Below, in pieces: positions 3,702-17,943 of a stretch of DNA of 17,943 nt; positions within the stretch are counted from its first letter, which is position 1; every line of letters starts with the position of its first letter. Location: NCBI GenBank assembly GCA_028714615.1, contig JAQTMA010000068.1, forward strand, positions 1 to 17,943. The letters run 5' to 3'. The notes under the pieces are model-generated. The model was not told the origin of the DNA. It was given only the letters and a program-made list of their open reading frames with translations, and searched no databases. Origin of the DNA: Anaerolineaceae bacterium. Its GTDB lineage: Bacteria; Chloroflexota; Anaerolineae; Anaerolineales; Anaerolineaceae. The translations under genes were made by a program, and so were the position numbers.

Positions 3702-4378
3702 CAGGGCATCTCACGCAGCACGTACCCCACGCCGCGGACGGTATGGAGCAGTCGCTCTTCCCCCTCGATCTCCAGTTTTTGCCGCAGGTAGCGGATGTAG
3801 ACGTCCAGCACATTGCTCTCACCGCCGAAGTCGTATCCCCACACCCGGTCGAAGATCACTTCGCGAGTCAACACCTGGCGTGGGTGCCGCAAGAAAAGCT
3901 CGATCAGGTCGTATTCCTTAGCGGTCAGGGAGATGACGCGTCCTTTGCGGTACGCCTGGCGGGTGCCGGTATCCAGGGTCAGGTCGTTAAACTGGAGCAC
4001 CTGGGAACGGTCCGGCTGCGTGCGGCGCAGCAAGGCTCGCAGGCGGGCGAGCAGCTCGTCGAGCTCGAATGGTTTCACCAGGTAATCATCTGCCCCGGCA
4101 TCCAATCCCTGCACGCGGTCCTGGATGGTATCTTTGGCGGTCAACATCAGAATGGGGACGTTGCCGGCGGAGCGCAGCCGCTGGCATACTTCCAGGCCGT
4201 CCATCCCGGGGAGCATCCAATCCAAAACGATAAGATCCGGGTGCTGATCTCGCGCCAGGTTCAGGCCTGTTTGGCCTTCCGTCGCTGTATCCACCTGGTA
4301 GCCTTCATAGACCAGGCTGCGCCGCAGCATCTTCAGGATAGCCTCATCATCTTCGATAATCAGGATGCGTTCCTTCAT
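3701..4378 (-). CDS. OmpR/PhoB-family response regulator
   Basis: This 225-aa DNA-binding regulator pairs with the kinase downstream. The receiver domain (1-118) has the acidic pocket at Glu9-Asp10-Asp11, the phosphoacceptor Asp53 in [13 protein letters not shown], the switch residue Thr80 and Lys102 in YLVKPF. The winged-helix domain (about 126-222) carries the OmpR-type signature [23 protein letters not shown] and VRGVGYVLR. The ATG at 4378 is preferred over an in-frame start further upstream (4567), because the receiver domain begins immediately and GGGGGAGG lies 4 nt before it. It is the first gene of a two-gene operon and is divergent from the sugar transferase. Targets are unknown. Confidence 0.95.
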
Positions 4379-4394
4379 ATGTCCTCCCCCAGCC

Positions 4395-4403
4395 AATATA
4401 CCA
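4395..4403 (-). promoter_or_regulatory. Candidate extended -10 element of the response regulator operon
   Basis: The minus strand reads TGGTATATT (TATATT at 4395-4400), an extended -10 with no good -35 at 16-18 nt. A start near 4388 would leave only about 10 nt of leader, placing the Shine-Dalgarno at the 5' end of the mRNA. The very short leader lowers confidence. Confidence 0.35.
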
Positions 4404-4487
4404 CAGAGTAAAATTTTCGGGTAGTAAACCAAAGTTGGCATATTGCGGCTGGCTTTGCAAGATACCCTATAGTGCCTCAATGATCTT

Positions 4488-4496
4488 TGGTACAAT
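4488..4496 (+). promoter_or_regulatory. Extended -10 element positioned for a leaderless transcript of the sugar transferase
   Basis: TGG followed by TACAAT (4491-4496) is an extended -10 matching the TATAAT consensus at 5 of 6 bases. The usual 6-7 nt spacing puts transcription start at 4502-4503, exactly the GTG start codon. No Shine-Dalgarno precedes that codon, which agrees with a leaderless mRNA. No consensus -35 is seen. Confidence 0.5.
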
Positions 4497-4502
4497 TCAA
4501 AA

Positions 4503-5135
4503 GTGCCCCCTTTTTTGATCCCCCCGGGGATTCCCCTGTCGAAACGTTTGCTCGACCTGGCGCTCACGCTGCCGGGGTTGGTGCTGCTCTCGCCGTTCCT
4601 GGCGGGGATTGCCGTTTGGGTGCGGTTCGCCGGCGGAACGCCCGTGCTCTTTCGCCAGGTGCGCCCCGGTTATCAGGGGAAGCTCTTTACGGTCTATAAA
4701 TTCCGCACCATGACCGAACACAAGGACGAGCACGGGGTGCTCCTCCCAGACGGGCAACGCCTGCCCCCCTGGGGACGGTTTTTGCGCGCCGCCAGCCTGG
4801 ATGAGCTGCCCGAACTGTTCAACGTTGTCCGTGGGGAAATGAGCCTGGTCGGGCCCCGCCCGCTGTTGGCTCGCTACCTGGAGCGCTACACCCCCGAACA
4901 GTTGCGCCGCCATGAGGTGGCTCCCGGAATCACCGGTTGGGCGCAGGTCAACGGCCGCAACACCCTCACCTGGGAGGATAAGTTCCGCCTGGACGTATGG
5001 TACGTGGAGCATTGGTCGTTCTGGTTGGATGTGAAAATCCTGGCGCTGACGGTCTGGAAGGTGTTGAAACGGGAGGGCATCTCCCAGCCCGGTATGGCTA
5101 CGGCGGAGGAGTTCCATGGGGAGGATAGGGACTAG
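4503..5135 (+). CDS. Small phosphoglycosyl transferase (bacterial sugar transferase, PglC-like)
   Basis: This 210-aa monotopic membrane enzyme is expected to move a sugar-1-phosphate from a nucleotide sugar to undecaprenyl phosphate, starting a cell-surface glycan. Residues 13-41 ([20 protein letters not shown] and onward) form the membrane-associated helix. Family motifs follow in order: FRQVRPG, VYKFRTM, then ASLDELPEL with the catalytic Asp100-Glu101 pair, SLVGPRPLL, and [12 protein letters not shown]. At this size it is the minimal form, without the N-terminal TM domain of WbaP/WcaJ-type proteins. The start is GTG without a Shine-Dalgarno. No other glycosyltransferase, flippase or polymerase gene is in the window, so it appears to be an orphan. 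Its last 38 bases overlap the convergent lipoprotein gene. The sugar cannot be told from sequence. Confidence 0.92.
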
Positions 5136-6186
5136 CGCTAACCCCGATCCTTCCTGCCGCCAGGTCCTCCACCACCTGTTCCACCAGCCGCATTTTGCCG
5201 GGCGTCAGAACGCTGTTATCGACCTGGCTCACCGTCAACCGGGCATTGAGCGCCAGCCCTGCTTTCCCTGCCATCAGGTCAGGCCACAGGGCTTCGAGCG
5301 CCGGGATTGGATCGCTGCCGACGGTGGCGATCCAGTGCGTTATAAGGGCGTCAGTCGGCGGCGTGGCGCCGATAAGGCGCGCTCCCGCCTGCGAGAGCGC
5401 ATCCCACACATCCGGCGCAGCCAGGGCCGGGGGAACGTAGACCACTTTGGCCCCTTTGGTTTTCAGCTCTGCGACCGCACCCTGCCATTCCGTGGGGGAC
5501 ACCGCATCCGCATAGACGGGATAGCCGGGATACGGGGGCGATTTCGGCAGGCAGATGCCGCACACGTAACGCGCCCCATTCAAGAACGCCTCCCGAACAA
5601 CCTGCCCTGGAGCGTCGCCCAGGCTGAGCGTCCCGGCCCGCCAGTCGGAGGTTGTCAGGGCGGCGATATACCCGGCCAGGAAGGCGGTTTGTGCGGCCTG
5701 GCTGTCTCCCCCGATCACGCTCACGTTGTTCTCGGCCTGCCATTCACCCGCTCCGATGGCGACGAATTGAGTCGCCGGCGCCTTTCCGGACAATCCGGCG
5801 ACATCCACACTCCCTGGCTGCCCGGTCGTGGAGACCACAACTACGACTTTCACGCCGGAGGTCAGATCCGCCGCATCGAGCCCCGGACGCACCTCCACTT
5901 TCATGCCGGAAGTGGCCGCCAGCGCTTCGAGAGTGGTGCGCAGTGCCTGAGCGGCTGCCGGCAGGTTGGCCGGGTCGCTGCCCGGGATGACCAGCAGGGC
6001 CTTCGCTCCCTCGGCGGTAGCGGAGGGAGCGGCCGGAGGGGAAAGCGTGACGGCCGGGATGACGCCGGTTGGCGTGGAGGAGTTTCCGGTGGGACCCGGC
6101 CGGAAGCCGCAGCCAGAGAGGATCAGGCTGGTTAGCAGTACAAGACTGAGGAACGTGTGGAGCGATGCAGAGCGGGTAGATGGCAT
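5098..6186 (-). CDS. Lipoprotein resembling BMP-family substrate-binding proteins
   Basis: This 362-aa protein is probably lipid-anchored outside the membrane. The signal peptide runs to the lipobox LILSGC, with Cys26 as the acylated residue, followed by a Gly/Pro/Thr/Ser linker to about residue 60. The mature part alternates strands and helices as in a type I periplasmic-binding fold: VKVVVVVSTTG, FVAIGAGEW, QTAFLAGYIAALTT (a typical BMP-like segment), AFLNGARYVCG, GAKVVYVPPAL, and GARLIGATPP. No ABC permease or ATPase gene is adjacent, so a transport role is not supported by context, and a sensor or carrier role is possible. The start is ambiguous between ATGs at 6198 and 6186; the second gives a compact lipoprotein signal. 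The 3' end overlaps the sugar transferase gene by 38 nt. Confidence 0.78.
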   Translation of the reverse strand: MPSTRSASLHTFLSLVLLTSLILSGCGFRPGPTGNSSTPTGVIPAVTLSPPAAPSATAEGAKALLVIPGSDPANLPAAAQALRTTLEALAATSGMKVEVRPGLDAADLTSGVKVVVVVSTTGQPGSVDVAGLSGKAPATQFVAIGAGEWQAENNVSVIGGDSQAAQTAFLAGYIAALTTSDWRAGTLSLGDAPGQVVREAFLNGARYVCGICLPKSPPYPGYPVYADAVSPTEWQGAVAELKTKGAKVVYVPPALAAPDVWDALSQAGARLIGATPPTDALITHWIATVGSDPIPALEALWPDLMAGKAGLALNARLTVSQVDNSVLTPGKMRLVEQVVEDLAAGRIGVSASPYPPHGTPPP

Positions 6187-6223
6187 TGTATCAAGCATCC
6201 CTGGGTAGCCGAAAAGTACCTGT

Positions 6224-6231
6224 ATTATAAT
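6224..6231. promoter_or_regulatory. Palindromic -10-like element between divergent genes
   Basis: ATTATAAT is its own reverse complement, so TATAAT reads on both strands (6226-6231 on +, 6224-6229 on -). On the minus strand it would start a transcript near 6217, ahead of the lipoprotein start at 6186. On the + strand it points toward the DUF389-like gene. No consensus -35 is seen at the right distance on the minus strand. Confidence 0.4.
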
Positions 6232-6252
6232 GGAGACATGATGTATGGCGCT

Positions 6253-6280
6253 TTGGGATTCTCCCAGGTCGCGGTAAAAT
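6253..6280 (+). promoter_or_regulatory. Candidate promoter for the DUF389-like gene
   Basis: TTGGGA (6253-6258), a 16-nt spacer, then TAAAAT (6275-6280) match the -35 at 4/6 and the -10 at 5/6. Transcription would begin near 6287, giving a leader of about 80 nt to the ATG at 6366. Confidence 0.4.
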
Positions 6281-6365
6281 GGAATGAGATCGGCGAAGCG
6301 CACCCTTCATTTCACTCAATCGACCAATTCGGGCTATCCTGTTGGATGATCGCGAGCTTAAGACA

Positions 6366-7580
6366 ATGACCCTGCCTGCCAGCGAGCCTATCCCCGACGA
6401 TACGGACCATCTGCCTCCGGCGCGTCGCCGGCGCGAAAGACGCCACCTGGCGCCTCTCGGGCTGGGTGAGCGCAATGAACGCGCCGCGTTCTTAGATAGC
6501 CTGGCCGCGCGCGCGATTCCCTCCTTCGACTTTTTCCTCTTCTCTCTCATCTCCGGCCTGGTGTTCGGCCTGGGGTTCTTGCTCAATGCCCCGGCCGTGT
6601 CGGTCGTGGCAGCCGTCCTGGCGCCTTTCCTCGCTCCGCTGCTCGGCTTATCCCTGGCCACCGTCATCGGCTCGGGCCGCTTCTTCCTAAAATCCCTGAT
6701 CAGCTCGGTGTTGGGCGTAGGGCTGGCTTTTCTGGGCGGTTTCCTTGCCGGATTTGCCCCGCGCTATCTGCCCAGCCTGCCGTTACCACTCACCTGGGGT
6801 GTATCCCAAACCCAATTCTCATGGCCGAGCCTGGCAGCCTTGAGCCTGTTGGTCGTGCTGACCGTAACCGGTTATGTCCGCAGCCAATCCAAGGCGTTCC
6901 TCCCGGAAGTGGGTATGGCGTACCTGCTGTACCTTCCCCTGGCTGCGGCGGGGTTTGGTTTGAGCGCCGGCGCTGGGGAGCTGTGGCCGCACGGCTTGAT
7001 CGTTTTCTCTGTGCATCTGGCCTGGACAGTGGTGTTGGGAGCGCTGATCTTGGCGGCGTTAGGCCTGCGCCCTTTGACCGTGTTCGGATATTCGCTTGGC
7101 GCGACCATCGGACTGTCCGGCCTCGTCGTGCTGCTCGCCTTGAGCGGGATCGGGACGATCTTACGTCGCCAGGAGACCATCCCGATCGTCGTCCCCACCC
7201 AACAGACTCCCACCGCCACCCTGGTGACCGCTACTGCTACCCCCACCGAAGCAGTTCCGACCGCCACGCCGACCCCCCGCGTCACGCCTTCGAACACGCT
7301 CGTTCCCAGCGCGACGTTTACCGAGACCATTACCCCGGCGCCGACCCCCGTCTGGGCGATCATCAACGCGGCCAGCCTGAACGGCGCCTATATCCGGGCG
7401 GAACCCAAAGTGGGTTCGAAGATTTTGACTTCTGTGCTCAACGGCGCCCTGGTCAAAGTCCTCCCCGAAACCATTCAGGATGGGGGGACCATTTGGGCGC
7501 ACATTCTGACCACCGGCGGGTTGCAGGGCTGGATCGTCCAATCCCTGCTCGTTACCGCCACCCCTGCGCCGGGCTGGTAA
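6366..7580 (+). CDS. DUF389-like polytopic membrane protein with a C-terminal SH3b domain
   Basis: This 404-aa protein has three parts. Residues 1-50 are charged and Arg-rich, presumably cytoplasmic. Residues 54-265 hold about six hydrophobic segments; the first two (FFLFSLISGLVFGLGFLL, then AVSVVAAVLAPFLAPLLGL) resemble the DUF389 pattern of a non-specific membrane pair with conserved APxxxPxLG. Residues 272-328 are a Thr/Pro/Ala linker. Residues 332-396 form a bacterial SH3-like domain: INAASLNGAYIRAEP, VLNGALVKVLP, WAHI and GWIVQSLL. SH3b domains often bind cell-wall peptides, so the tail is probably extracytoplasmic. The start is unclear: a TTG at 6342 would add eight residues, and neither start has a clear Shine-Dalgarno. 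The DUF389 assignment is by pattern only. Function is unknown. Confidence 0.75.
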   Translation: MTLPASEPIPDDTDHLPPARRRRERRHLAPLGLGERNERAAFLDSLAARAIPSFDFFLFSLISGLVFGLGFLLNAPAVSVVAAVLAPFLAPLLGLSLATVIGSGRFFLKSLISSVLGVGLAFLGGFLAGFAPRYLPSLPLPLTWGVSQTQFSWPSLAALSLLVVLTVTGYVRSQSKAFLPEVGMAYLLYLPLAAAGFGLSAGAGELWPHGLIVFSVHLAWTVVLGALILAALGLRPLTVFGYSLGATIGLSGLVVLLALSGIGTILRRQETIPIVVPTQQTPTATLVTATATPTEAVPTATPTPRVTPSNTLVPSATFTETITPAPTPVWAIINAASLNGAYIRAEPKVGSKILTSVLNGALVKVLPETIQDGGTIWAHILTTGGLQGWIVQSLLVTATPAPGW

Positions 7581-7643
7581 AGCGCCAGGCTGGTAGTACA
7601 GGGCGCAAAAGCAATCGATTGAATACCTTCAAAGGAGCAGTGC

Positions 7644-9104
7644 ATGACCATCCACTTCGGGACAGACGGCTGGAGAGCCGTGATTTCAGATACGTTCACC
7701 TTCACCAATCTACGCCTGGTGTCGCAAGCCATCGCAGATGCCGTGGCGACAGAAAAATGGAATAACGGCGCGCCCCTCGCCCAGCCGCCGGATGCGCGCA
7801 AGATGGTGGTGGGTTTTGACACGCGCTTTCTGTCGGACCGCTATGCCCAGGAAGCCGCCCGAGTTCTGGCAGCCAATGACTTTACCGTCTACCTGGCCCA
7901 GGCCGACGCGCCAACCCCCGCCATTTCGTGGGCGGTGCGCGAGCTGAACGCCATCGGCGCCATCATGATCACCGCCTCACACAATGCGCCGCGTTATAAC
8001 GGGGTGAAGCTAAAAGCGGCCTACGGCGGTTCTGCTCTCCCCGACCAGTGCCGGAGCGTCGAGGTATACCTGAACGATAATGAAGCCCAGGGGCGCGGCC
8101 CGAACCTGATGGACTACGAAATTGCCCGGCAGCGCGGCTTGATCCAGCGCTTCAATCCCCTGCTGGCCTATAGCACACAACTCCGCCGCCTGATCAACCT
8201 GGATATGATCGCCGAAAACCCGCAACGGGTGGCGGTCGATTCGATGTACGGCGCCGGGCGGGGGATTATCCGCAGCCTGCTGCAGGGAACGGGTTGCGAG
8301 GTGCAAGAGGTGCGCGGTGAAATGAACCCCGGCTTCGGGGGCGTCCATCCGGAACCGATCTCCCGCTACCTGGGCGCCCTGGCCGGCGCCGTCAGCATGG
8401 GCATGGGCAGCTTTGGCCTGGCGACCGACGGCGACGCTGATCGCATCGGTGCGATGGACGAGCGCGGGAATTTCGTTGATCCCCACAAGATCATGGCTCT
8501 GGCGCTGCGCCACCTGGTGGAACAACGCGGTTGGCGGGGGTCGGTGGTACGGACGGTCTCCACCACGCGGATGATCGACCGCCTCGCCCAACGCTACGGC
8601 CTGGAGGTGCACGAGACGCCAGTGGGGTTCAATCACATCGCCGATTACATGCTGAAAGAGGACGTGCTCATCGGCGGCGAGGAATCGGGCGGCATCTCGT
8701 TCAAGGGCCACATCCCCGAAGGCGACGGAGTTTTGATGGGCCTGTTACTGGTCGAAATCGTCTCCTGCTCGGGGAAGACCTTGCACGAGCTGGTCGATGA
8801 CCTGCTGAACGATGTTGGCCCGGCCTTTTACGAGCGCAAAGACCTGCGCCTCAGCCGGCCGGTTTCCAAGGCGGCCATCACCCATCGCCTGCAAGATGAA
8901 GCCCCGGAGGAGATCGGCGGCGAAGCGGTCAGCCAGGTTGCCACCGTGGATGGGGTGAAGTACATCCTGGCCGACGATTCCTGGCTGCTCATTCGCCCTT
9001 CGGGCACCGAACCCGTCTTGCGGGTATATGCCGAAGGTCGTTCGCCGGCGATGATGAAAGCCTTGATGGGTTATGGCGAGCAAGTGGCTGCCACCGTTGT
9101 GTGA
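7644..9104 (+). CDS. Phosphoglucomutase/phosphomannomutase family enzyme
   Basis: This 486-aa alpha-D-phosphohexomutase interconverts 1- and 6-phosphosugars in the cytoplasm, supplying precursors for nucleotide sugars. The N-terminus has FGTDGWRAVI. The catalytic serine loop is ITASHNAPRYNGVK, with phosphoserine at Ser112. The metal-binding loop is TDGDADRIG (Asp262, Asp264, Asp266). The sugar-binding loop is GGEESGGISF (344-353), and the C-terminal phosphate-binding loop is RPSGTEPVLRVY (451-462). All four domains are present. GGAG lies a few bases before the ATG. It follows the DUF389-like gene by 63 nt on the same strand and may share its transcript. Sequence alone does not separate glucose, mannose or glucosamine specificity; the SGG loop agrees with broad PGM/PMM members. 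Confidence 0.94.
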   Translation: MTIHFGTDGWRAVISDTFTFTNLRLVSQAIADAVATEKWNNGAPLAQPPDARKMVVGFDTRFLSDRYAQEAARVLAANDFTVYLAQADAPTPAISWAVRELNAIGAIMITASHNAPRYNGVKLKAAYGGSALPDQCRSVEVYLNDNEAQGRGPNLMDYEIARQRGLIQRFNPLLAYSTQLRRLINLDMIAENPQRVAVDSMYGAGRGIIRSLLQGTGCEVQEVRGEMNPGFGGVHPEPISRYLGALAGAVSMGMGSFGLATDGDADRIGAMDERGNFVDPHKIMALALRHLVEQRGWRGSVVRTVSTTRMIDRLAQRYGLEVHETPVGFNHIADYMLKEDVLIGGEESGGISFKGHIPEGDGVLMGLLLVEIVSCSGKTLHELVDDLLNDVGPAFYERKDLRLSRPVSKAAITHRLQDEAPEEIGGEAVSQVATVDGVKYILADDSWLLIRPSGTEPVLRVYAEGRSPAMMKALMGYGEQVAATVV

Positions 9105-9170: not shown

Positions 9171-10133
9171 TTACTTTTCGGTTGCCCGGACGCGGCGTAC
9201 CAGCACGATCACTACCAATAGCGCTAAGGAGAGACCCAGTAAGCCGGGAATGCCGAATTCATCGGCAAAACCGGTAGTGGGCAGAGCCGTAGGTTTGGGG
9301 GCAGTGGTCACGCTAACACCGCTGCCGCTTTGGGTCGCCGTGGAGCTGGCCTGGGTGGGCTGGATTTGGGTTGCCGGGACGCTTGTCTGGGTGGGTTGAG
9401 CCAGGTTTTGGGTTGGAGCCACGCTGGTTTTCGTCGCCTGGGCGACCACCTGGGTCGGTTGGGCTGCTTGCTGCGTCGGCTTGGCAGCTCCCTGCGTCGG
9501 TTGGACGACGACTGTGTGGGTGGGTTGCACAACCACCTGGGTCGGTTGGACTACGTTGGTTTGGGTGGGCTGGAGCACCGCCTGCGTCGGCTGGACGACG
9601 GGCGTGTTGGTGGGCTGCACAATTTCCTGCGTCGCGGAGGCTGCAGGTTGGGTCGGCAGGATGGCGCCATTGGTGGCTGCCTGGGTCAGCAGCGCCGCAA
9701 CCGTGGCTGTGTGTAGCTCCGCTGTAACCGCCGGCGCATTGGTCACCTGAAGCGCGGCGATGGGGGTTTCCGAGGGGATCAGGATGGCTGAGGTTGGCAG
9801 GTCGGAAGTGGGGCGCCGGGTGGCCGAAGGCAATACCTCAGGCGTGCGGGTCGGACCTTTCTGACCTGCGGCCTGCAAGGCTACCTGCTGGGTGAGGGCC
9901 ATCACTGTGGCCGTGTTCTGTGCGTAAATGAGCACGGTCTGGGTGCCTTGCGCGTCGCGCTGCGCATTCATTTGGGGGCGCAAGAAGAAGAGGTAACCGG
10001 CCATTAATGCGAGGGCTAGCAGAAAGATGAGCCCGAGCACAATGATGGCGGCTGTGAAGCCCTGGTTCCCACCTCCGGATGGCGATGACTCTGGGCCAGT
10101 GGATGGGACGTCCAGATTACGATAGTCGTTCAT
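9171..10133 (-). CDS. Membrane protein with QPTQ repeats and an LPXTG-like C-terminal tail
   Basis: This 320-aa protein has a short polar N-terminus, a TM segment (about 27-50), a low-complexity region rich in Thr, Pro, Gln, Ala and Val (93-283), and a C-terminal sorting-signal-like tail: LPTTG (284-288), a hydrophobic stretch (293-312) and the basic end RRVRATEK. Residues 173-258 repeat QPTQ-type units of 7-8 residues. The layout fits an anchored surface stalk, either a two-TM loop or an LPXTG-sorted protein whose first TM acts as an uncleaved signal anchor. No sortase gene is visible. AAGAGG lies 5-6 nt before the ATG. It is the last gene of the minus-strand cluster, 46 nt after the KOW protein gene. 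It has no catalytic domain. Confidence 0.8.
   Translation of the reverse strand: MNDYRNLDVPSTGPESSPSGGGNQGFTAAIIVLGLIFLLALALMAGYLFFLRPQMNAQRDAQGTQTVLIYAQNTATVMALTQQVALQAAGQKGPTRTPEVLPSATRRPTSDLPTSAILIPSETPIAALQVTNAPAVTAELHTATVAALLTQAATNGAILPTQPAASATQEIVQPTNTPVVQPTQAVLQPTQTNVVQPTQVVVQPTHTVVVQPTQGAAKPTQQAAQPTQVVAQATKTSVAPTQNLAQPTQTSVPATQIQPTQASSTATQSGSGVSVTTAPKPTALPTTGFADEFGIPGLLGLSLALLVVIVLVRRVRATEK
9384..9617 (-). repeat. In-gene tandem repeat encoding QPTQ units
   Basis: The DNA repeats in steps of 21-24 bases, and the first part alternates 8- and 7-residue units, giving a 45-bp super-period (QPTNTPVV QPTQAVL, then QPTQTNVV QPTQVVV, then QPTHTVVV QPTQGAA). Units diverge toward the C-terminus (KPTQ, QATK, APTQ). 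The frame is preserved throughout, so the repeat is coding. Confidence 0.75.
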
Positions 10134-10179
10134 GGGTGCCTCTTCTTCTCAGGGGCGAACCCCCGCGGCGAATTTCGCC

Positions 10180-11235
10180 TTACTCGATAACTTCCAGGTT
10201 GATCAACGGGATGATCGCCTTTTCCCCGCTTGTCAGGTGGATTGCGGCAGCCGGGGCGCGGACGCCGCTGGGGTATTGTGACAGGCCGTTGCGCAGGTTG
10301 GCCAGGGTTCCGGTTTGGCCGGCGAAGGCCCCGCGCCGCACGTGGATCGTTTGGCCAGGGGCGAAGCTGGTCGTTTCGGGCGGCGGCGGAACCGGGCTGC
10401 TGGTGGGGAGGGGAATGACCACTTCCGGCCGGATGCCGGTTTGGTGATCCCAGGCGGCGGCGTTTACCGTTACGTCCCGCTGCTCGTTGGTCGTCAGGAT
10501 CGAATAGGCTACCGGGTTGAGGGGTATGCGTCCGAATCCCTCCAACAAAATAATCGGGAAGGGGGCTTGCTGCGCCAGTGGGATCAACTGCGCCGGCATG
10601 CTGGCCAGGATCAAGCCGCGCAGTGGCAGGCCGATCGCGGTTTGCAGCGCTTCCTCCTTCATCAGGATGGCCGCCAGCAACACCGATCCGCGCATACCCA
10701 CGTCCATTTGCTTGGCGGTGAATTCTTCGTCCGGGGCATGCGCCAGCACCACCAACAAGGAATTATCGGTTTTGCCGTTTCCCCACACCCCCTGGATCAA
10801 GGCCCCGGTGGCTTCGATGATGGCGCCGCGATCGGGAATCACCTCGGCGACGACCCCGGGCATCCCGGCGCGCAGCTCGAACGCAGCTCCCTCAATCTCC
10901 ATCAGTAGCTGGCCTTCGCCGACCACCTTGACCACTCCGTTCTCCGGGGCGCGAACTACCCGGTTCAGCAACCCCACCGGGCCGGCCAGGACGTCCCCTT
11001 TGATCACCCGGTCGCCAGTCTTTCGCTGCGCAAGCGTATCGGCTTCCTGCGGGGTGACGCCTAATCCGTAGGCGGTGTCAAATAGCAGGTGGGGATTATG
11101 CGGATGGCATTCCGCCAGCACGTCGCTTGCCAGCACTTTTTGGCCAGCGTGCACCAATACCCGGCCGTTGGCGGGTAGCAGGCGTTCGCGGCGGATGGTC
11201 GTCAGGGGCAGGATGTGGGTAAGCGGCGCTATCAT
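10180..11235 (-). CDS. Barrel-sandwich-hybrid protein with C-terminal KOW motif
   Basis: This is a 351-aa soluble protein of unknown function. Residues 20-120 have lipoyl/biotinyl-like or RnfC/NqrA-like beta features: VLVHAGQKVLASDVLAE, KTGDRVIKGDVLAG and VRAPENGVVKVVGEG. A middle alpha/beta region (about 125-265) includes SLLVVLAHAPDEEF and GLILASMPAQLIPLA. A proline-rich linker (275-288) precedes a KOW-like motif (about 292-318, FAPGQTIHVRRGAFAGQTGTL), as found in NusG- and ribosome-associated proteins. The ATG at 11235 is chosen because residues from an upstream in-frame start overlap the MutL gene and look unstructured. It lies 40 nt after the MutL gene and probably shares its transcript. 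The cofactor is unknown: no lysine in the classic E-x-K-M biotin/lipoyl motif is visible. Confidence 0.7.
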   Translation of the reverse strand: MIAPLTHILPLTTIRRERLLPANGRVLVHAGQKVLASDVLAECHPHNPHLLFDTAYGLGVTPQEADTLAQRKTGDRVIKGDVLAGPVGLLNRVVRAPENGVVKVVGEGQLLMEIEGAAFELRAGMPGVVAEVIPDRGAIIEATGALIQGVWGNGKTDNSLLVVLAHAPDEEFTAKQMDVGMRGSVLLAAILMKEEALQTAIGLPLRGLILASMPAQLIPLAQQAPFPIILLEGFGRIPLNPVAYSILTTNEQRDVTVNAAAWDHQTGIRPEVVIPLPTSSPVPPPPETTSFAPGQTIHVRRGAFAGQTGTLANLRNGLSQYPSGVRAPAAAIHLTSGEKAIIPLINLEVIE

Positions 11236-11275
11236 AGTCAATCCATTCGGGTTGCAAGAAGGATGCCTGGGAGGC

Positions 11276-13024
11276 TCAGCCGCCCAGCGTCCACTGCCAC
11301 TTCTTGAGCAGTTCCTGGCGCCGGGTCTCATCTTCGGGTAAGCGCAACGGCCGGCCCCGCGCGTCGATGACCGCTCCCAGCACGCCGCCGGTTACTTTTA
11401 CTCCTCGCCCGGGGCGCGCCATGCCCAGATCGGTCGGCCCAACCGCCTCCAAATAGAGTTGAGCGCTTTCTCCGCGCGTCAGAGGCAGCATGTGCAGGGA
11501 GCCGTGCTTCACCTCGAGGTTGACTTCATTCTTATCTGCATAGACCAGCCTTGCCCTTAAGATGAGCGCCCCAAAAGGCGCTTCGCTGATGGGCGAGACC
11601 ACTGTTCCCAGGTTGATGAATGCACCCGATTCGAGCACCTGGACGGGCAAGAGCGGGTTAATCGTTGCGGCGACGCCCAGGGCGGCAGTGAGCCCGTTCT
11701 GGTCGAGCACCAGCGTCGTAACCCCCACCGGTTGCAACCCGTCCAGCAGGGTCAGCAGGCTCTGTCCCGCGCTGGGTGATTGGGTGAGCACCGGCCCGGA
11801 GGCGATGATCGGCTCGTAGGGCGGCGTGAGACCCGGGCCAGGATAGACCCCCCTGGCATGCAGGCGGTTGGAGAACCCGCGCACGGCCAGGCGCAGGATG
11901 GCGCGCGCGATAGCCTGGTCGATCGCCTGTTCTTCAGCAGACACCGGCAGGCTGTTTGGATAGGCTTCTTTTTGGTTCAAATAGTTCAGCAGATCGCCTT
12001 CACTCAATGGCGCCGTTAACCATTGGGCGATCTCGGCAGGCGGAATGCAGCGCAGCACCCCGGTGATGCCGGATCCCAGGCCCAGCGGGGATTGCACCAT
12101 CAAGGAGAGCTTGCCGGAAGTAGCAGTGGCCAGCACCGTCGACCGGGCGCCCAGGTCGACCCCCATCACACCCTTGACCGGATCGTAGACCTGGCTAAGA
12201 AAGCGGATGACGCGCCCAAAAGCGAAGGCCGTCGTAGAGGCGTGCCCATCGCACAGGCTGATCAGGTCCGCAATGCCCGCCACGTGGGCAGCGCGGTTCG
12301 CCTGGACCATCTCGTTGAGGCAGGCTTGCGCCGGTCCCAGGTCTTCGTGATCAAAGTCGGGACGAATATTGGCGGTGATGCGGACACTGGTGATCGGCTC
12401 AACCTGGCTGCGCATCTTCTCGGCCAGGTCGGTATTGCCCGCATACAACACCGCCGGGCGCTGATCGGCGGGCATCAGATAGCAGGCCAGCCCGGCAATC
12501 TCCACCAGGTGAGCGACGGAGCGCCCGGCGCCCCCATCCGTTCCGCCTGCGATCACGATGATGTCGGGCCGGGCTTGAATGATCGCATCGATTTGGGCTT
12601 CGGGTTTGCGCCGGTCGTTCAGGCCGATGCTCTCCACCACTCGCGCATAAGTGCTCCCTGCCAGGCGTTGCGCGCTCTCCAGGGACACGTCTGCCAGCAG
12701 CCCGATCGTAACGATGTTGAGCGTTGGCCCCGCCGAGAAGCTGGTCACCACTCCGTCCACCCCAGACCCGTCCGCCTGGGTGGGGATGATCAATTCACCC
12801 TCTTTCCCCAACAGCAACCGTCCGGTAATACGCTGCAGGTTTTCGAGCGATTGCCGTACCCCATCCGTGGTGTTCTTATGGGGGGCGCCAGCCGTGGTGG
12901 GCGCCTGGCCTCCAGCCACAAAATTGAAGTGCCCGTCGGCCACCACGAACAGCAGCGCGCGGGTGTTGGCGGATCCCACGTCGATTGCCAGGAGGGTTTC
13001 AGCTTCCATGTGCGAAGGGTTCAT
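11276..13024 (-). CDS. MutL-family (glutamate mutase L type) ASKHA ATPase
   Basis: This 582-aa protein belongs to the actin/Hsp70-like fold. LLAIDVGSANTRALL (Asp15 to Arg22) is the phosphate-1 loop, GVMGVDLGARSTVLA (286-300) the phosphate-2 loop, and DIIVIAGGTDGGA (154-166) and PIIASGPVL (405-413) are glycine-rich segments of the nucleotide site. Members are named for a gene beside coenzyme-B12 glutamate mutase, with a presumed reactivation or chaperone role. This MutL is unrelated to the mismatch-repair protein of the same name. The C-terminal 110 or so residues (about 470-582) form a beta-rich extension beyond the ATPase core. No B12 mutase subunit is nearby; the flanks are membrane proteins. 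Two ATGs are possible (13024, 13009) and neither has a clear Shine-Dalgarno. It begins 15 nt after the six-TM gene ends. Confidence 0.85.
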   Translation of the reverse strand: MNPSHMEAETLLAIDVGSANTRALLFVVADGHFNFVAGGQAPTTAGAPHKNTTDGVRQSLENLQRITGRLLLGKEGELIIPTQADGSGVDGVVTSFSAGPTLNIVTIGLLADVSLESAQRLAGSTYARVVESIGLNDRRKPEAQIDAIIQARPDIIVIAGGTDGGAGRSVAHLVEIAGLACYLMPADQRPAVLYAGNTDLAEKMRSQVEPITSVRITANIRPDFDHEDLGPAQACLNEMVQANRAAHVAGIADLISLCDGHASTTAFAFGRVIRFLSQVYDPVKGVMGVDLGARSTVLATATSGKLSLMVQSPLGLGSGITGVLRCIPPAEIAQWLTAPLSEGDLLNYLNQKEAYPNSLPVSAEEQAIDQAIARAILRLAVRGFSNRLHARGVYPGPGLTPPYEPIIASGPVLTQSPSAGQSLLTLLDGLQPVGVTTLVLDQNGLTAALGVAATINPLLPVQVLESGAFINLGTVVSPISEAPFGALILRARLVYADKNEVNLEVKHGSLHMLPLTRGESAQLYLEAVGPTDLGMARPGRGVKVTGGVLGAVIDARGRPLRLPEDETRRQELLKKWQWTLGG

Positions 13025-13039
13025 AGCGGTTGGGAGAGC

Positions 13040-13720
13040 CTAGAAGATCGAATTCCAGAGGAAGGACAGGCGCTCGATGAGCGCAGTCAGCGCCGCGGAA
13101 TAGACGCCTGCGAAGAGAGCGCCTAACGTGATGGCGATGAAAACCTGCCCAACGTTGGCGGCGGTTTCGACAAGCGCTCCGCGCTGCGGAAGTTGGTTGA
13201 AGCGGGAGTGGGCGCTGAACTGGAAATAGAGCAGTGTTGCGCCCGTCCCGGCCAGCAGCACGACCCCTTCCAGGATCGCCAGGGCAACCCCGGCGGTCTG
13301 GGCCCGCCCGGAATGCACGTCGAAGGCATTGATCGTGGCCATCGTCTGGGGGAAGAGTGTTCCGAGCACCACGCCGGAGATCATGACAGCCGCGCCCACC
13401 CCCACCAGCAGCGCCACCGGGAGGCTTCCCAGTCCGGCCAGGCGGGGAGACGCTTTGGCCAATAATAACAAGCTGAGCACCAGTGGGACGAGCAATAGCC
13501 CTTTTTCGGTCACCGGCAGATCGGAACGGAAGAAGTTCAGCACCAGCTTCGGCCAGATCACCTGATTGAAGGTGACCAGCAGCACGTAGCCGGCCACGAT
13601 GCCCACGAAGGCGTATGTGGCTCCGCGAAAGAAGGGGTTGTCGCCCACCACCGCGTAACTGAGCACCAGCACAGTCAGGATGAACGCGACGGCCATCCAC
13701 ACCAGGTCTGTCAGATTCAT
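13040..13720 (-). CDS. Six-TM integral membrane protein of unknown function (MutL cluster, second)
   Basis: This 226-aa protein is almost entirely hydrophobic. Predicted TM segments are near residues 6-25, 32-56, 73-90, 99-124, 142-168 and 188-216, and the C-terminus is short (LSFLWNSIF). Between TM4 and TM5 is a conserved-looking loop FPQTMATINAFDVHSGRAQ. I recognise no transporter or enzyme signature. The ATG at 13720 is supported by AGGAAGG upstream and by a 4-nt ATGA overlap with the stop of the zinc-ribbon gene; longer in-frame starts would sit inside that gene. The overlap points to coupled translation, and so to a partner in the same complex as the zinc-ribbon protein. Confidence 0.78.
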   Translation of the reverse strand: MNLTDLVWMAVAFILTVLVLSYAVVGDNPFFRGATYAFVGIVAGYVLLVTFNQVIWPKLVLNFFRSDLPVTEKGLLLVPLVLSLLLLAKASPRLAGLGSLPVALLVGVGAAVMISGVVLGTLFPQTMATINAFDVHSGRAQTAGVALAILEGVVLLAGTGATLLYFQFSAHSRFNQLPQRGALVETAANVGQVFIAITLGALFAGVYSAALTALIERLSFLWNSIF

Positions 13721-16002
13721 GCCGCCGCCTTCCTGACCGGTTTCCGGTCTTTCCACAACGGCCAGAAGGCGTTGAACAATGCCCCCGCCAGGATGATCAC
13801 GATTGCCGCCCAGGCCCCCGCCTGGTAAGCATCCCAATAGGCCCGCCCGGTGCTGGGACGCTGGAGCATTTGCTCGTAGGCCGCCCCCCCCGCCAGACCG
13901 GCCACCATGCCCTGCACCTGGCCCGAGTCCAGGTAGGCGCGCAGCACGGGCGCGGCTTGTGAGCTGCTGGTTACCACGAAGGCCCCGTTCGGGCTCATAT
14001 GCGCTCGCACCTGTTCCACCCAGGCGCGGGCGGTATCCACGTTGTCGGTCAACAGGACGATCTGGGTGAAGTCAGTCAGTCCCGTAACGCCCTGGAGCGC
14101 CGGACGATCCCAGGCGGGCTCTCCGCTCAGGTCGTAATACGCGGCTTCCTTCGGCTGCCGGGCGAAGGCGGCCAGGCCGGTCGTTCCACCTGCCAGGTAA
14201 CCCAGGTCGACGACCTTTTCGCCGCTGATGTATCCGGTCATGTAACCGGCCGGTTCGGCATAAAGCCGGTTGAAAAGGCGCGCGGCCAGGGCAGATCCGG
14301 TAGGTGTGCTGGAGATCACCGCCAGGCGCGCCCCACGCGCCATCAGGTGATCGATCACGCCGGACGCGGCAACTTCCAGCTCGCCGGCCAGCGAAGGCGA
14401 ATAATCGATTACCAACAGGACAGGGTCGTTCGTGGAGAGCGAATCGACGGTCTCGTTGGCCCACAACGTCTCCTGGGGGATCGCGTCGGGGATGGGGACG
14501 ATGTGGGTATGGGCTGCGATCGGGAATAACACCACAGCGAACAGGGCCAATGCCAGCGCCATGCGTAAGAGGCGCGAGGTGGACACCAGCGGCTTGCCCG
14601 GCGCTGGCTCGGGCTCAGCCTCACTGGCGAGCAACTTTTGAAACATCTCACTGTGGTCTCGCTGGCGTTCGGAGACCTCTAGGAGGGTAGCATACCGGGT
14701 GGGTTGGCGGAAATCGGCGGCGGCCGGTTCGGAGGGTAGAATACCGCGCAATCCGGCCAGCGGTCCCTGGGCTTCGATGTGCGGGTCGGCGCTGTTTTCA
14801 GGAAGGGGGGTAGGTGCAACCGATTCCACGGGGCGCATGGCCTGCACCCAGATCGGCAGGTCGGCCGGAACGATCGGCTCGTCGCCGGATGCTTGCTCGC
14901 CAGGCGGCTCATTCCCTGCAGGGGGAGCTGGGGTCTTTCCGGGCTGTTCGAGCCACTCCGGCAGCTTTTCTCTGCTTGGCGGGGGCGTCCGCTCTGCCCG
15001 GGCATCTCCCAGGATCAGCGGCGCAGGCGAATCGAAGCTCGTCTGCAAACCGGAAGGGGCGTTGGCTTCCAGTTTCGCCAGCCAGTCCGGAGTCCAATCC
15101 GGCTCCCACTGTGGCCCCTGGGGTTCGACCGCGGGCTGGTCGGGGAGCTCGCTCTCCCCGGGAGCAGGCGCCGGCGGCGGGGTGGGTTCGCTCTCGCCTG
15201 GCGTTTCGTCCGGAGGAAGCACGTTCGGGGTGGGCTCTTCCGGCAGGCGATTTTCTGGTGGGTTGGTTGGAATTTCGGCGGCGGGTTGCTCGGCCTCGTG
15301 CGGCGGAAGCGCCTGGCTGACGTCTTCCGCAGGCAGAGAGAAGGCGTTGTCTTGCGTCCGGTCGGGAATCCCTTCCGGCTCGGGTTCATTGGCTTTCAGC
15401 TCGGATATCTTCGCCAACCAATCGGGCATGTCCGCCTGGAAAGCCATCTCCTCGCCGGCCGGCTCTTGCGTTTTTTCGGGGGTTTCGGGTTGTATCTCGC
15501 CCAGGCGCCTCAACCAGTCTTGTTCGGGTTCGGCCGATTCCGTTGCGGCGAGGTTCGCCACACCTAAAGGCGGCTCGTCTTTCAAGCCATCGTCGAAGGC
15601 GCGCTGGCGGACGGGCTTCAGCCAATCTGGGATGCCATCATCCTCGCTGCTCTCACCCGCTTCTTCACCCCCTTCAAACGGCTGGACGGGGCGCTCGGGT
15701 GTTTCGGGTGCATCGAAGTCGCGCAGGCGACCCAGCCAATCGGGCTCCCCTTCGCTTCCATCCCCTTCCACTTGAAAGGGAGATACCGGCTCCACCTCCC
15801 CGTTCTCGCTGTTCGTCCGCAAAGATTGCAACCAATCGGGGACCTCATTGTTCACGGCTTCGTCCGGGGTTGGGGCGGGGGATGGTGGGGTGGGTGGAGC
15901 GGGCGGATGCGTCATGGGCTTCAAGCGCGCCTGGCAGTGAACGCAGACCTCCAGGTCAGCCGGGTTCAATCTTCCGCACATTGGGCAGCGTATCTCAGCC
16001 AT
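13717..16002 (-). CDS. Zinc-ribbon membrane protein with an array of PDWL-type motifs
   Basis: This 761-aa protein starts with a zinc ribbon (Cys6, Cys9, Cys20, Cys23; RCPMCGRLNP and CVHCQARL). A disordered region rich in Pro, Glu and Asp (30-470) carries repeated tryptophan motifs: PDWL at 55, 87, 125, 193 and 305, QDWL at 161, PEWL at 348 and PIWV at 383, most followed by a short basic/hydrophobic helix such as AKLEA. A TM segment spans about 478-498, then an alpha/beta domain (510-725) and a second TM (about 730-750) with a basic tail. The soluble domain has VLLVIDYSPSLAGEL, a GARLAVISS strand and QIVLLTDN, and resembles a Rossmann-like or vWA-like fold. It begins 2 nt after the preceding gene and overlaps the next by ATGA. 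A large scaffold is a reasonable inference; its function is not known. Confidence 0.82.
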   Translation of the reverse strand: MAEIRCPMCGRLNPADLEVCVHCQARLKPMTHPPAPPTPPSPAPTPDEAVNNEVPDWLQSLRTNSENGEVEPVSPFQVEGDGSEGEPDWLGRLRDFDAPETPERPVQPFEGGEEAGESSEDDGIPDWLKPVRQRAFDDGLKDEPPLGVANLAATESAEPEQDWLRRLGEIQPETPEKTQEPAGEEMAFQADMPDWLAKISELKANEPEPEGIPDRTQDNAFSLPAEDVSQALPPHEAEQPAAEIPTNPPENRLPEEPTPNVLPPDETPGESEPTPPPAPAPGESELPDQPAVEPQGPQWEPDWTPDWLAKLEANAPSGLQTSFDSPAPLILGDARAERTPPPSREKLPEWLEQPGKTPAPPAGNEPPGEQASGDEPIVPADLPIWVQAMRPVESVAPTPLPENSADPHIEAQGPLAGLRGILPSEPAAADFRQPTRYATLLEVSERQRDHSEMFQKLLASEAEPEPAPGKPLVSTSRLLRMALALALFAVVLFPIAAHTHIVPIPDAIPQETLWANETVDSLSTNDPVLLVIDYSPSLAGELEVAASGVIDHLMARGARLAVISSTPTGSALAARLFNRLYAEPAGYMTGYISGEKVVDLGYLAGGTTGLAAFARQPKEAAYYDLSGEPAWDRPALQGVTGLTDFTQIVLLTDNVDTARAWVEQVRAHMSPNGAFVVTSSSQAAPVLRAYLDSGQVQGMVAGLAGGAAYEQMLQRPSTGRAYWDAYQAGAWAAIVIILAGALFNAFWPLWKDRKPVRKAAA
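14845..15840 (-). repeat. Array of eight W-L/W-V linear motifs within the zinc-ribbon protein
   Basis: Eight copies of a P/Q-D/E-W-L type motif occur over about 330 residues, separated by 32-110 residues of Pro/Glu-rich sequence. Five are exact PDWL. Spacers are not conserved, so this is a protein motif array and not a DNA tandem repeat. Motif spacing and acidic spacers fit multivalent docking of a partner protein. Confidence 0.7.
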
Positions 16003-16004
16003 AA

Positions 16005-16628
16005 CTAGTTCTCATATGGGCGGTCGGCCCCAAGCAGGATGCGCAACCCGGTGGCCAGGCTGCCCAGGGCGACGCCCAGCAAGATGCCGCGCGCGCCCGC
16101 TAACGGCAGGCGATTAGCCGAATCGGCCAGGATTTGCAAGAAAGGCGCATTTAACAGCGGCAGGATACCGCTGCCCAGCGCCAGGAATACCAGGGCAGAT
16201 GCCACAAAGACCACCGCCAGGGCGTCTCGCCGCCGGCGCAGCAACCGCGCAGCCGCGTAGATCAGGCTGACCGTCAACACCGCCATCAGGCTGGCCTCCA
16301 CCGGCACCTGGATCGAGTCGACCACCGGTTGGAGCAGCGCTTTTCCGGGATTGAGCAGGTTCTCGGCGATGCCGCCCACCAGCGTCACCCCGAATGCGAC
16401 CAGCAGAATGATGCTGTATACCTTTTCGTTCTGTCCCCGTCGTATCTTTTGCGAGTGCACCGAGATCAGGTTGGCCACCCCCACCCAGGTCGCCACGGCG
16501 GCGATGATCATGGCCCACAGCAGCAAGTGGTCGTGCAGGTTGGTCAGGATGGGCAGGTCGATGAAAGCGCCCAGGAGCACGATTACCCCGGCCGCAATGG
16601 CAATGACGGCGGAAAAGATGATTTTCAC
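16005..16628 (-). CDS. Six-TM integral membrane protein of unknown function (MutL cluster, first)
   Basis: This 207-aa protein has predicted TM segments near 2-22, 35-56, 68-88, 109-130, 136-155 and 176-198. A basic loop RRRR sits after TM4, which suggests a cytoplasmic side there, and the end is polar (ADRPYEN). The start is GTG at 16628, overlapping the preceding stop by 4 nt (GTGA). Its stop lies 2 nt before the zinc-ribbon ATG, so expression is probably coupled on both sides. I recognise no known transporter or enzyme motif. It is about the same size and topology as the other six-TM protein in the cluster, but I see no obvious sequence similarity by eye. Confidence 0.76.
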   Translation of the reverse strand: MKIIFSAVIAIAAGVIVLLGAFIDLPILTNLHDHLLLWAMIIAAVATWVGVANLISVHSQKIRRGQNEKVYSIILLVAFGVTLVGGIAENLLNPGKALLQPVVDSIQVPVEASLMAVLTVSLIYAAARLLRRRRDALAVVFVASALVFLALGSGILPLLNAPFLQILADSANRLPLAGARGILLGVALGSLATGLRILLGADRPYEN

Positions 16629-17374
16629 AGCACACCGGCCAGTTTAAGAGCGGAGCCGGCCAACAACACCGCGACCAGCACCCACCGGGTAATATCTTCA
16701 GTGCGCAGGCTGGCGGCGTGCGCCGCCCCCGCCTGCAGATAGGCGCCGCCGGCGAAGACTTCTTCGCCGATGAGCGGCTCCTGGGCGGCTGCGTAAAGCA
16801 CCGCCTGCGCGCTCAAATTGTCGCTGCCGGCCAGCAAAAAGCCCTTGGTTTGGGCGGCGGCGTCGGCCATCAGGGCTGCTTCGGGACCAAAATTGCCGAC
16901 CATGATATTGGCCGACACCTGCTCGTCGCTGAACACCGGCATGCTCCCCACTGCGTACGAAAAGGGGGTCAACCCGGTCAGCCGTCCTTGGTGAGGATCG
17001 TACTCCTGGGTGGTGTGCGCCTGGCGATAGGTGCTGTGCAGCCTATCCTGGCTCAAGATCGCTAGCGTGCTCTCGCCGGAGGTGACCACGGGCGGCCGGT
17101 CGCTGGCGGAGCTGAGTTGGGCCGCCCGCTCCAGCATCGTCAGACCCACCAGGGCGGAGGCGTTCTGCGGATTCAGGATCGAAGCGCTGCCCAGCGAAAC
17201 GTGCACGCGCGATCCATCCTCGACAGCCAGGTTGATGGCTTTGCGCAGTTGGCCGAAGGCCGCGATGGGGCGCAGGCTGCTGTACGGTTGCCGGCGGGTG
17301 GCCACCCAGATTCCGGTAAGCACGATGGCGAACAGCAGCACCACCACCAAACCAACAATGTTTGTCCAGTTCAA
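16625..17374 (-). CDS. DUF6754-like bitopic membrane protein
   Basis: This 249-aa protein has an N-terminal TM (about 5-25), a soluble domain (30-225), and a C-terminal TM (about 230-247). Conserved-looking blocks include SSLRPIAAFGQLRKAINLAVE, GSRVHVSLGS, SDRPPVVTSGESTLAILSQD, RLTGLTPFSYAVGSMPV, ANIMVGNFGPEAALMADAA and AQEPLIGEEVFAGGAYL. This pattern resembles proteins I recall as DUF6754, common in Chloroflexota; the name is from memory, not a search. The start is TTG at 17374, whose TTGA overlaps the stop of the preceding gene by 4 nt and which follows GGGAGG at 10 nt. No ATG lies between it and a far upstream start in another gene. No enzyme activity can be inferred. Confidence 0.78.
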   Translation of the reverse strand: MNWTNIVGLVVVLLFAIVLTGIWVATRRQPYSSLRPIAAFGQLRKAINLAVEDGSRVHVSLGSASILNPQNASALVGLTMLERAAQLSSASDRPPVVTSGESTLAILSQDRLHSTYRQAHTTQEYDPHQGRLTGLTPFSYAVGSMPVFSDEQVSANIMVGNFGPEAALMADAAAQTKGFLLAGSDNLSAQAVLYAAAQEPLIGEEVFAGGAYLQAGAAHAASLRTEDITRWVLVAVLLAGSALKLAGVL

Positions 17375-17652
17375 CGGTAACCTGCCTCCCTTAAAAAGCG
17401 GGCAAATTGGGTCAGCTCGGTTGGATCTTCCAATAACTGCGCCAGGGCTTGCAGTGATTCGCCGGCCGCTTTCCGTCCGAACAAGGGCTGGCCAAGGTAG
17501 AGCGCTTGAGCGCCCAGGATGGCCAGCGGGCCGGCGATTTCGGAAAGATCGGCTGCGAGGTTGGCCAACCCATTGCGTTGCAAGAAGCGCGCCCAAACCG
17601 GCCAGTGCTCCCGGCTCGCGCCAGCGAATGGAGATACGCTTAAATCAGGCAT
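17371..17652 (-). CDS. Small helical protein of unknown function, first gene of the MutL cluster
   Basis: This encodes 93 aa, mostly helical, with a moderately hydrophobic centre (AGPLAILGAQALYLG) and a charged C-terminal helix (LAQLLEDPTELTQFARFLREAGYR). I recognise no domain. The ATG at 17652 is chosen because the best promoter would start transcription near 17695; longer in-frame starts (17703, 17841) fall upstream of that, and the extra sequence is not protein-like. Its stop overlaps the TTG start of the DUF6754-like gene by 4 nt, so it is translationally tied to the membrane cluster and may be a regulator or small partner. Confidence 0.6.
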   Translation of the reverse strand: MPDLSVSPFAGASREHWPVWARFLQRNGLANLAADLSEIAGPLAILGAQALYLGQPLFGRKAAGESLQALAQLLEDPTELTQFARFLREAGYR

Positions 17653-17701
17653 CAATTTCCCAGAATCATGATAGGGTTCGCAGGCATAGCCTGTAGCATT
17701 C

Positions 17702-17730
17702 ATTTTATATCGCAGCGTGGGATCGGTCAA
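17702..17730 (-). promoter_or_regulatory. Promoter of the MutL/DUF6754/PDWL membrane cluster
   Basis: On the minus strand, TTGACC (17725-17730), 17 nt, then TAAAAT (17702-17707) match both hexamers at 5/6 with ideal spacing. Transcription would start near 17695, 43 nt before the ATG at 17652. A small inverted repeat (CAGGC, 3-nt loop, GCCTG; 17681-17693) follows the start and could be a leader hairpin or operator. Confidence 0.6.
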
Positions 17731-17768
17731 GTGGAGTCTGTCATCCAATCCCAAGAAACCGCCGCTCG

Positions 17769-17796
17769 TTGATGGTTTCACAAATACAGGTATAAT
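17769..17796 (+). promoter_or_regulatory. Promoter of the rubrerythrin gene
   Basis: TTGATG (17769-17774), a 16-nt spacer and a perfect TATAAT (17791-17796) precede the rubrerythrin gene. Transcription would begin near 17803, giving a leader of about 37 nt that includes AAAGGAG. The element is back to back with the cluster promoter, with -35 boxes about 38 nt apart. Confidence 0.65.
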
Positions 17797-17839
17797 CGGG
17801 GAGATAGTCGAATTGGGATTAAAACGAAAGGAGAACACC

Positions 17840-17943
17840 ATGACAAAAACTGCTGAAAACCTTCAAACAGCGTTTGCAGGCGAATCGATGGCGAACCGCC
17901 GCTACCTGGCCTTCGCCAAGAAAGCCGATGCGGATGGCTTCCC
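17840..17943 (+). CDS. Rubrerythrin, N-terminal fragment (runs off the window)
   Basis: Only 34 codons are visible: a start with LQTAFAGESMANRRYLAFAKKA, which matches the first helix of the ferritin-like diiron domain of rubrerythrins; the Glu in AGES is a likely iron ligand. Rubrerythrins reduce peroxide in anaerobes and microaerophiles, in the cytoplasm, using electrons from rubredoxin-type centres. AAAGGAG lies 7 nt before the ATG. Whether the C-terminal rubredoxin domain is present cannot be seen. It is divergent from the membrane cluster and need not be functionally related. Confidence 0.9.
   Translation, partial: MTKTAENLQTAFAGESMANRRYLAFAKKADADGF

Follow-up and report, generated by a model that had tools for sequence, protein, structure and literature searches.

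Do eight consecutive minus-strand genes of an Anaerolineaceae bacterium encode one system, and if so of what kind? The window, i.e. the whole stretch of 17,943 nucleotides (nt) analyzed here (contig JAQTMA010000068.1, assembly GCA_028714615.1), carries these genes at 9171-17652 (Table 1), in the transcription order G1, DUF6754, TMa, scaffold, TMb, MutL, KOW adaptor and last gene, where TMa and TMb are two proteins with multiple transmembrane (TM) segments. We favor, with a probability of about 0.42, the reading that the block is one functional system of two modules, in which a multivalent scaffold would bring a core of the MutL-type ATPase and the KOW adaptor to a membrane module. This reading is proposed because the gene order is fixed in 80 of 80 close relatives, because MutL is found in 65 of the 67 genomes with DUF6754, and because scaffolds with P-x-W (PxW) motifs occur both in the full block and beside MutL-KOW pairs that lack the membrane genes.

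Conservation of the gene block in Chloroflexota

Chloroflexota was the sole phylum searched. A DUF6754 profile search of genome contigs gave 195 relatives, the best 80 of which were analyzed as close loci; they belong to Chloroflexi/Chloroflexota or Anaerolineae groups, with a few under other Chloroflexota names, e.g. Chloroflexus. Profiles for the eight families, iterated within these 80 loci, found all eight in one order and on one strand in 59 loci, and the other 21 hold the leading part of the series followed by a contig end (in L044, the series stops 134 bases before it). Scattering of the genes in relatives, which would speak against a joint system, was looked for, and no exception to the order was seen among the 80 closest loci. 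The first four junctions in the window measure -4, -4, +2 and -4 nt, in exact agreement with the earlier note, which had described eight same-strand genes with three 4-nt overlaps and one 2-nt gap, and the remaining gaps are 15, 40 and 46 nt. In the close loci, where starts were picked near the preceding stop and lengths are thus biased toward short gaps, the DUF6754-TMa overlap is 4 or 1 nt long in 77 loci of 79 and TMb-MutL spacing falls between -20 and 30 nt in 65 of 66; spacing is looser further on, with MutL-KOW tight in 35 of 61 and KOW-last gene in 26 of 59.

A second sample (set 2) of 20 more distant Chloroflexota loci has DUF6754, TMa and scaffold adjacent and in order in every case, the L127 scaffold being aberrant. 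MutL is present in 17, the three others reaching contig ends first, and the KOW gene lies within the fetched stretch in nine. The last gene, found in all 59 close loci whose contig extends that far, is present in two of the 20. At the level of whole genomes (301 Chloroflexota genomes surveyed), PF20539, the DUF6754 family, matches once per genome in 67, with 66 matches above cut-off. A PF13941 (MutL) match at E <= 0.001 lies within 10 kb in 53 of these 67 and on another contig in 12, leaving two without (Fisher p 2e-19, kinship uncorrected and weak matches counted). Gene order and co-occurrence are direct observations, as are the domains and the motif array described below.

Table 1. Features of the eight-gene block, in transcription order (positions within the window; aa, amino acids)
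Feature	Position	Strand	Description
G1	17371-17652	-	93 aa, first gene of the block, no predicted TM segment
DUF6754	16625-17374	-	249 aa, TTG start; TM helix, Rossmann-like domain, TM helix
TMa	16005-16628	-	207 aa, six predicted TM segments
Scaffold	13717-16002	-	761 aa, N-terminal zinc ribbon, P-x-W array, two predicted TM segments
TMb	13040-13720	-	226 aa, six predicted TM segments
MutL	11276-13024	-	582 aa, long MutL-type ASKHA-family protein, PF13941
MutL C-terminal domain	11279-11617	-	about residues 470-582, VIDARGRPL motif
KOW adaptor	10180-11235	-	351 aa, barrel-sandwich + swivel + KOW (AlphaFold2 model)
Last gene	9171-10133	-	320 aa, two TM segments, QPTQ-rich middle, LPTTGFADEFGIPGL-TM-RR tail

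MutL and KOW as a separable pair

A third sample of 20 MutL stretches comprised 17 in which MutL is long or fused and DUF6754 is not found nearby, one that has the membrane cluster (L149) and two (L154 and L155) with true GlmL, an accessory protein of B12-dependent glutamate mutase. The KOW gene adjoins MutL in 15 of the 17 loci (the exceptions are L140 and L153) and in neither GlmL stretch. Profiles of DUF6754 and TMb, run on the genomes of 16 of these 17 loci (all but L153), found no match, whereas all 7 control genomes gave one; six of the 7 had contributed sequences to the profiles. Searching from the other side, we found KOW in 179 of the 301 genomes, and in a fourth sample (set 4) of 20 loci drawn from the KOW-positive genomes, MutL was present in 17 of the stretches fetched. 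MutL occurs in 158 of the 301 genomes, and both families in 137 (Fisher p 4e-25, again uncorrected for kinship and with weak matches counted). MutL and KOW are a soluble pair separable from the membrane genes and kept where these are not found. We infer that it predates the full block.

In 10 of the 17 loci, MutL is directly preceded by a gene for a zinc-ribbon protein that has 6-9 PxW[LMIV] motifs, a basic/aromatic tail and no TM segment by Kyte-Doolittle analysis. Its counterpart in L144 and L145 has a zinc ribbon, one PxW motif and one C-terminal TM segment, and no zinc-ribbon/PxW neighbor was seen directly upstream of MutL in L146, L148, L150, L151 and L153.

The block could also be one co-regulated transcription unit serving several separate envelope or housekeeping functions, with no joint complex. 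Its parts do separate in evolution: the pair stands without membrane genes, the membrane genes and MutL occur in some genomes with KOW elsewhere, and the last gene is mostly missing from distant loci. The claim of the earlier note that all eight proteins form one assembly is not borne out as stated, on the same three points. The strict order in the 80 loci, its retention in distant Chloroflexota and the zinc-ribbon/PxW scaffolds found in both contexts argue against separate functions, which we regard as unlikely. The note is borne out in its wider claim of a conserved gene system, to which DUF6754, a zinc-ribbon scaffold, two multi-TM proteins and an ATPase of the ASKHA type belong; the role of motor or chaperone that it proposed for the ATPase is putative.

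The zinc-ribbon PxW scaffold

A low-complexity part of the window scaffold contains six P-x-W-[LMIV] motifs, together with two close variants. TM segments are predicted at residues 478-496 and 728-746 (Kyte-Doolittle windows, used for all proteins apart from DUF6754, whose helices were taken from the AlphaFold2 model); the motif array is predicted to be cytosolic, and the ~230-aa part between the segments to lie outside the membrane. Close scaffolds have a mean of 8.5 motifs (range 1-21, n = 66) versus 0.38 in shuffled sequences, and the maximum, in one distant locus, is 63. At least three motifs are present in 74 of 78 close scaffolds versus none of 558 flanking proteins (150 aa or longer), and the other seven block families have no member that reaches three; in the distant loci, 12 of 20 scaffolds reach this number, against none of the 215 other proteins of set 4. 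The array looks like a short linear docking motif in repeated form. Two TM segments, as in the window, are one form of the protein; relatives have one C-terminal TM segment, or no TM segment and a basic aromatic tail. The zinc-ribbon PxW protein appears to be the link between the MutL-KOW core and the membrane module.

The KOW adaptor

The AlphaFold2 model of the KOW adaptor (mean predicted local distance difference test score, pLDDT, 92.6) and fold comparison point to a barrel-sandwich domain at about residues 14-142, a swivel domain at about 145-276 and a KOW domain at 287-351. The KOW domain, whose fold is also seen in the model, matches Spt5 in a PDB profile search (E 3e-5). The protein as a whole resembles NusG/Spt5 in this domain and partially matches NusG of Thermotoga maritima, which has an inserted barrel-sandwich domain. 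It differs from NusG/Spt5 in having a swivel domain and in being encoded beside a MutL-type protein. At the sequence level, no Pfam match to an NGN domain was found in it up to E 1. Other swivel-domain proteins (aconitase X small subunit, UPF0107 and RraA) share 8-15% sequence identity with the adaptor, in which, unlike in these proteins, the swivel domain is fused to barrel-sandwich and KOW domains. In a transcription- or ribosome-coupled system, a reading that we hold to be distinctly unlikely, the KOW/barrel-sandwich protein would contact RNA polymerase, rRNA or nascent RNA and link expression to the membrane module, and MutL would be a regulator.

Membrane proteins, G1 and the last gene

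DUF6754 (PF20539, E 3.5e-25, 89 bits against a cut-off of 27) and MutL are the sole window proteins of the eight with a Pfam family above cut-off; the scan was run on the longest open reading frames, some of which start further upstream than the genes in Table 1. Zinc-ribbon, KOW and barrel-sandwich matches were all below cut-off, and PADLOC models for anti-phage defense gave 0 families for all eight proteins at E 0.01. The DUF6754 model (mean pLDDT 90) has a Rossmann-like domain flanked by two TM helices, and K+R counts predict that the domain faces the cytosol. The protein had been described in the earlier note as bitopic; it has two TM helices, not one. Here as elsewhere in the block, topology and folds are predictions. 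TMa has a conserved end (AGARGILLG...LLGADRPY) and exactly six TM segments in 70 of 78 relatives, and TMb has six in 42 of 66, five or seven in 23 and eight in one; neither has a PDB profile match up to E 1.

G1 is present in 80 of 80 close loci and has no Pfam family above cut-off (longer open reading frame, 17371-17841). G1-like matches (E 4e-8 to 3e-11) lie upstream of the divergent KOW loci L165 (5289-5579), L166 (6144-7106) and L174 (6581-6886), where profile searches of the stretches saw neither DUF6754 nor one of the two TM proteins, TMa and TMb. G1 could be part of the core.

The last gene had been presented as a QPTQ/LPTTG protein, and LPTTG is indeed there in the window; a sortase motif is not conserved, with LPxTG kept in 38 of 59 relatives and the NCBIfam LPXTG model scoring 14.4 bits against a cut-off of 15.9. 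This protein bears on the possibility of a surface or secretion platform like the PilM-PilN-PilO base of type IV pili, which would export or anchor surface proteins, the LPTTG protein among them. PilM has an actin-like fold. It is reported to bind the short cytoplasmic part of PilN and to resemble the cytoplasmic domain of GspL (PMC4471445). The block shares with type IV pilus PilM-PilN-PilO-PilP and type II secretion GspL/GspM a plan only, an actin-fold protein on a membrane base. The plan, sortase genes in all 20 genomes tested and the presence of the last gene wherever a close contig reaches its place favor a platform of this kind. At the sequence level, no Pfam match to PilM, PilN, PilO, GspL or GspM families was found in the eight window proteins up to E 1, and ten annotated representatives of flanking families include no pilin or traffic ATPase. 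Together with the inconstant LPxTG motif and the rarity of the last gene in distant loci, these results make such a platform rather improbable. To our knowledge, PilM/GspL platforms have no counterpart of a multi-motif scaffold, of two multi-TM proteins or of a KOW adaptor.

The MutL-type protein

The window MutL matches PF13941 over residues 12-465 (E 8.4e-64, 216 bits against a cut-off of 27) and falls below the curated GlmL cut-offs (88.6 versus 475 bits for NF040745, 71.8 versus 204 for TIGR01319). It resembles MutL/GlmL in this domain and in both D15 and D290, which we take to be the acidic residues of the two ASKHA phosphate-site motifs. Unlike GlmL, it has ~113 extra C-terminal residues with VIDARGRPL, and its neighbors are KOW, scaffold and membrane proteins. 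These residues are filled in all 25 displayed of the 67 close alignment rows, in 18 of 18 distant rows and, in the two pair groups of 17 rows each, in 15 and 17 rows (the two exceptions have 88 and 25 residues), whereas the two GlmL rows have three and no aligned residues. The motif [DN][AG]RGRP is present in 98 of 119 system rows versus neither GlmL row; among the 21 without it are four rows cut by a contig end and several with small variants. D15 and D290 are kept in 59 and 52 of the 67 close rows (contig-cut rows included), 12 and 16 of 18 distant rows and 16 and 16 of 17 rows of one pair group. In the distant loci L118 and L120-L126, MutL is extended by a tail that in most cases ends in a basic stretch; the one in L121 bears two PDWL motifs. 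L153 encodes a 1264-aa protein containing a MutL domain (4233-8027, plus strand), perhaps a fusion.

Database sources list the system ATPase as 'glutamate mutase L'. In the genomes with DUF6754, which are those of relatives, glutamate mutase E (MutE, PF06368) was above cut-off in 0 of 67, and eight matches below cut-off fall inside methylmalonyl-CoA mutase genes. Since the mutase was not found above cut-off in any of the 67 and the C-terminal domain is missing from the two GlmL, the window-type MutL is in all likelihood not a glutamate-mutase helper. A role as reactivating chaperone of a B12-dependent mutase, in line with PF13941 membership, methylmalonyl-CoA mutase in 66 of 67 DUF6754 genomes (also in 8 of 14 control genomes) and MeaB and B12-binding families (one annotated member each) upstream in 14 and 13 of 78 loci with upstream flank, is nonetheless very improbable, as the true GlmL of L154 (466 aa) and L155 (461 aa) adjoin MutE, one genome (G181) encodes both a true GlmL with its mutase and the system MutL, another (G077) has the system and no methylmalonyl-CoA mutase match, the two GlmL rows form a separate 100/100 group in an otherwise weakly resolved tree, and the membrane genes and scaffold would be left unexplained.

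A model of the system and its weak points

In the two-module system that we favor, the soluble core would consist of the long MutL-type ASKHA ATPase and the KOW/barrel-sandwich/swivel protein. The scaffold arm, long and probably disordered, would bind a core protein or client in several copies through its many P-x-W-[LMIV] docking peptides. The scaffold would also attach the core to the membrane, in the window through its two TM segments and in relatives through a C-terminal TM segment or a basic aromatic tail. That of Anaerolineae and a number of further Chloroflexota groups has a predicted outside domain and would be made jointly with DUF6754 and two proteins of about six TM segments. The nucleotide cycle of the ATPase would most likely open and close the binding of clients or partners, as in Hsp70/actin-fold proteins, resulting in ATP-dependent assembly, loading or gating of the membrane module. 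The physical complex, docking via PxW motifs and ATP coupling are what we infer here.

Several observations weigh against this model. D15 and D290 are kept in only 8 and 5 of the 17 most divergent MutL-KOW pairs, and because the catalytic acids are so often lost there, ATP hydrolysis does not appear to be universal in the MutL family; loss of the acids with retention of the C-terminal domain suggests that some divergent MutL (L156-L175) are pseudo-ATPases. The KOW gene lies more than 1 megabase from the cluster in some cluster-bearing genomes, e.g. G123. The zinc-ribbon pattern is found in 77 of 98 scaffolds, four distant scaffolds of about 290 aa have no PxW motif (L128-L130 and L133), five have only 1-3 (L127, L131, L132, L134 and L135) and the contig-cut L117 none; inspection by eye shows SH3-like sequence at the end of the L127 scaffold. 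Finally, one of 142 other proteins of set 2, a flanking protein in L120, has three PxW motifs.

Neighboring genes

Downstream of the block and convergent with it lies a phosphoglucosamine/phosphomannomutase-like gene (7644-9104, plus strand); a convergent family of the same orientation and median length, identified by length and place, is found in 40 of 57 loci with downstream flank. A DUF389-like membrane protein carrying an SH3 domain is encoded at 6342-7580 (plus strand), and a family with one annotated member (L062) that has these two domains occupies the equivalent place in 17 loci. By eye, a sensor histidine kinase (2319-3701, minus strand) and a response regulator (3701-4567, minus strand) overlap by 1 base, and a sugar-transferase-like gene (4503-5135, plus strand) overlaps the end of a gene for a lipoprotein-like, BMP-type protein (5098-6303, minus strand).

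A family represented by one annotated PIG-L type deacetylase (L062:8585-9682) is encoded upstream of G1 on the same strand in 14 loci, 6-69 nt away in 13 and 1089 nt in L007, and may hint at an envelope glycan link. MeaB-like (14 loci) and B12-binding (13 loci) families lie upstream on the minus strand, divergent from the block, e.g. in L064 and L075.

Implications

The composition of the block appears to fall outside any described kind found, and its function is putative. A literature search for DUF6754 and PF20539 found no paper, and broader searches gave none on such a system among the matches listed, in keeping with the earlier note, which knew of no described system with this composition. 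In a bolder version, to which we give a low probability, an Hsp70/actin-fold ATPase with a KOW/swivel adaptor, clustered by a PxW scaffold, would drive two multi-TM proteins as an unrecognized class of bacterial membrane machine and might couple membrane insertion or export to ribosomes or nascent chains.

The analysis brings to light a fixed gene set, common to many members of one phylum and unnamed in the literature searched, whose ATPase carries the label 'glutamate mutase L' in a group where that mutase was not found. It predicts that MutL binds KOW, that PxW peptides dock a core protein and that the VIDARGRPL C-terminal domain marks a MutL class, and the scaffold variants with two, one or no TM segments would offer a natural experiment.

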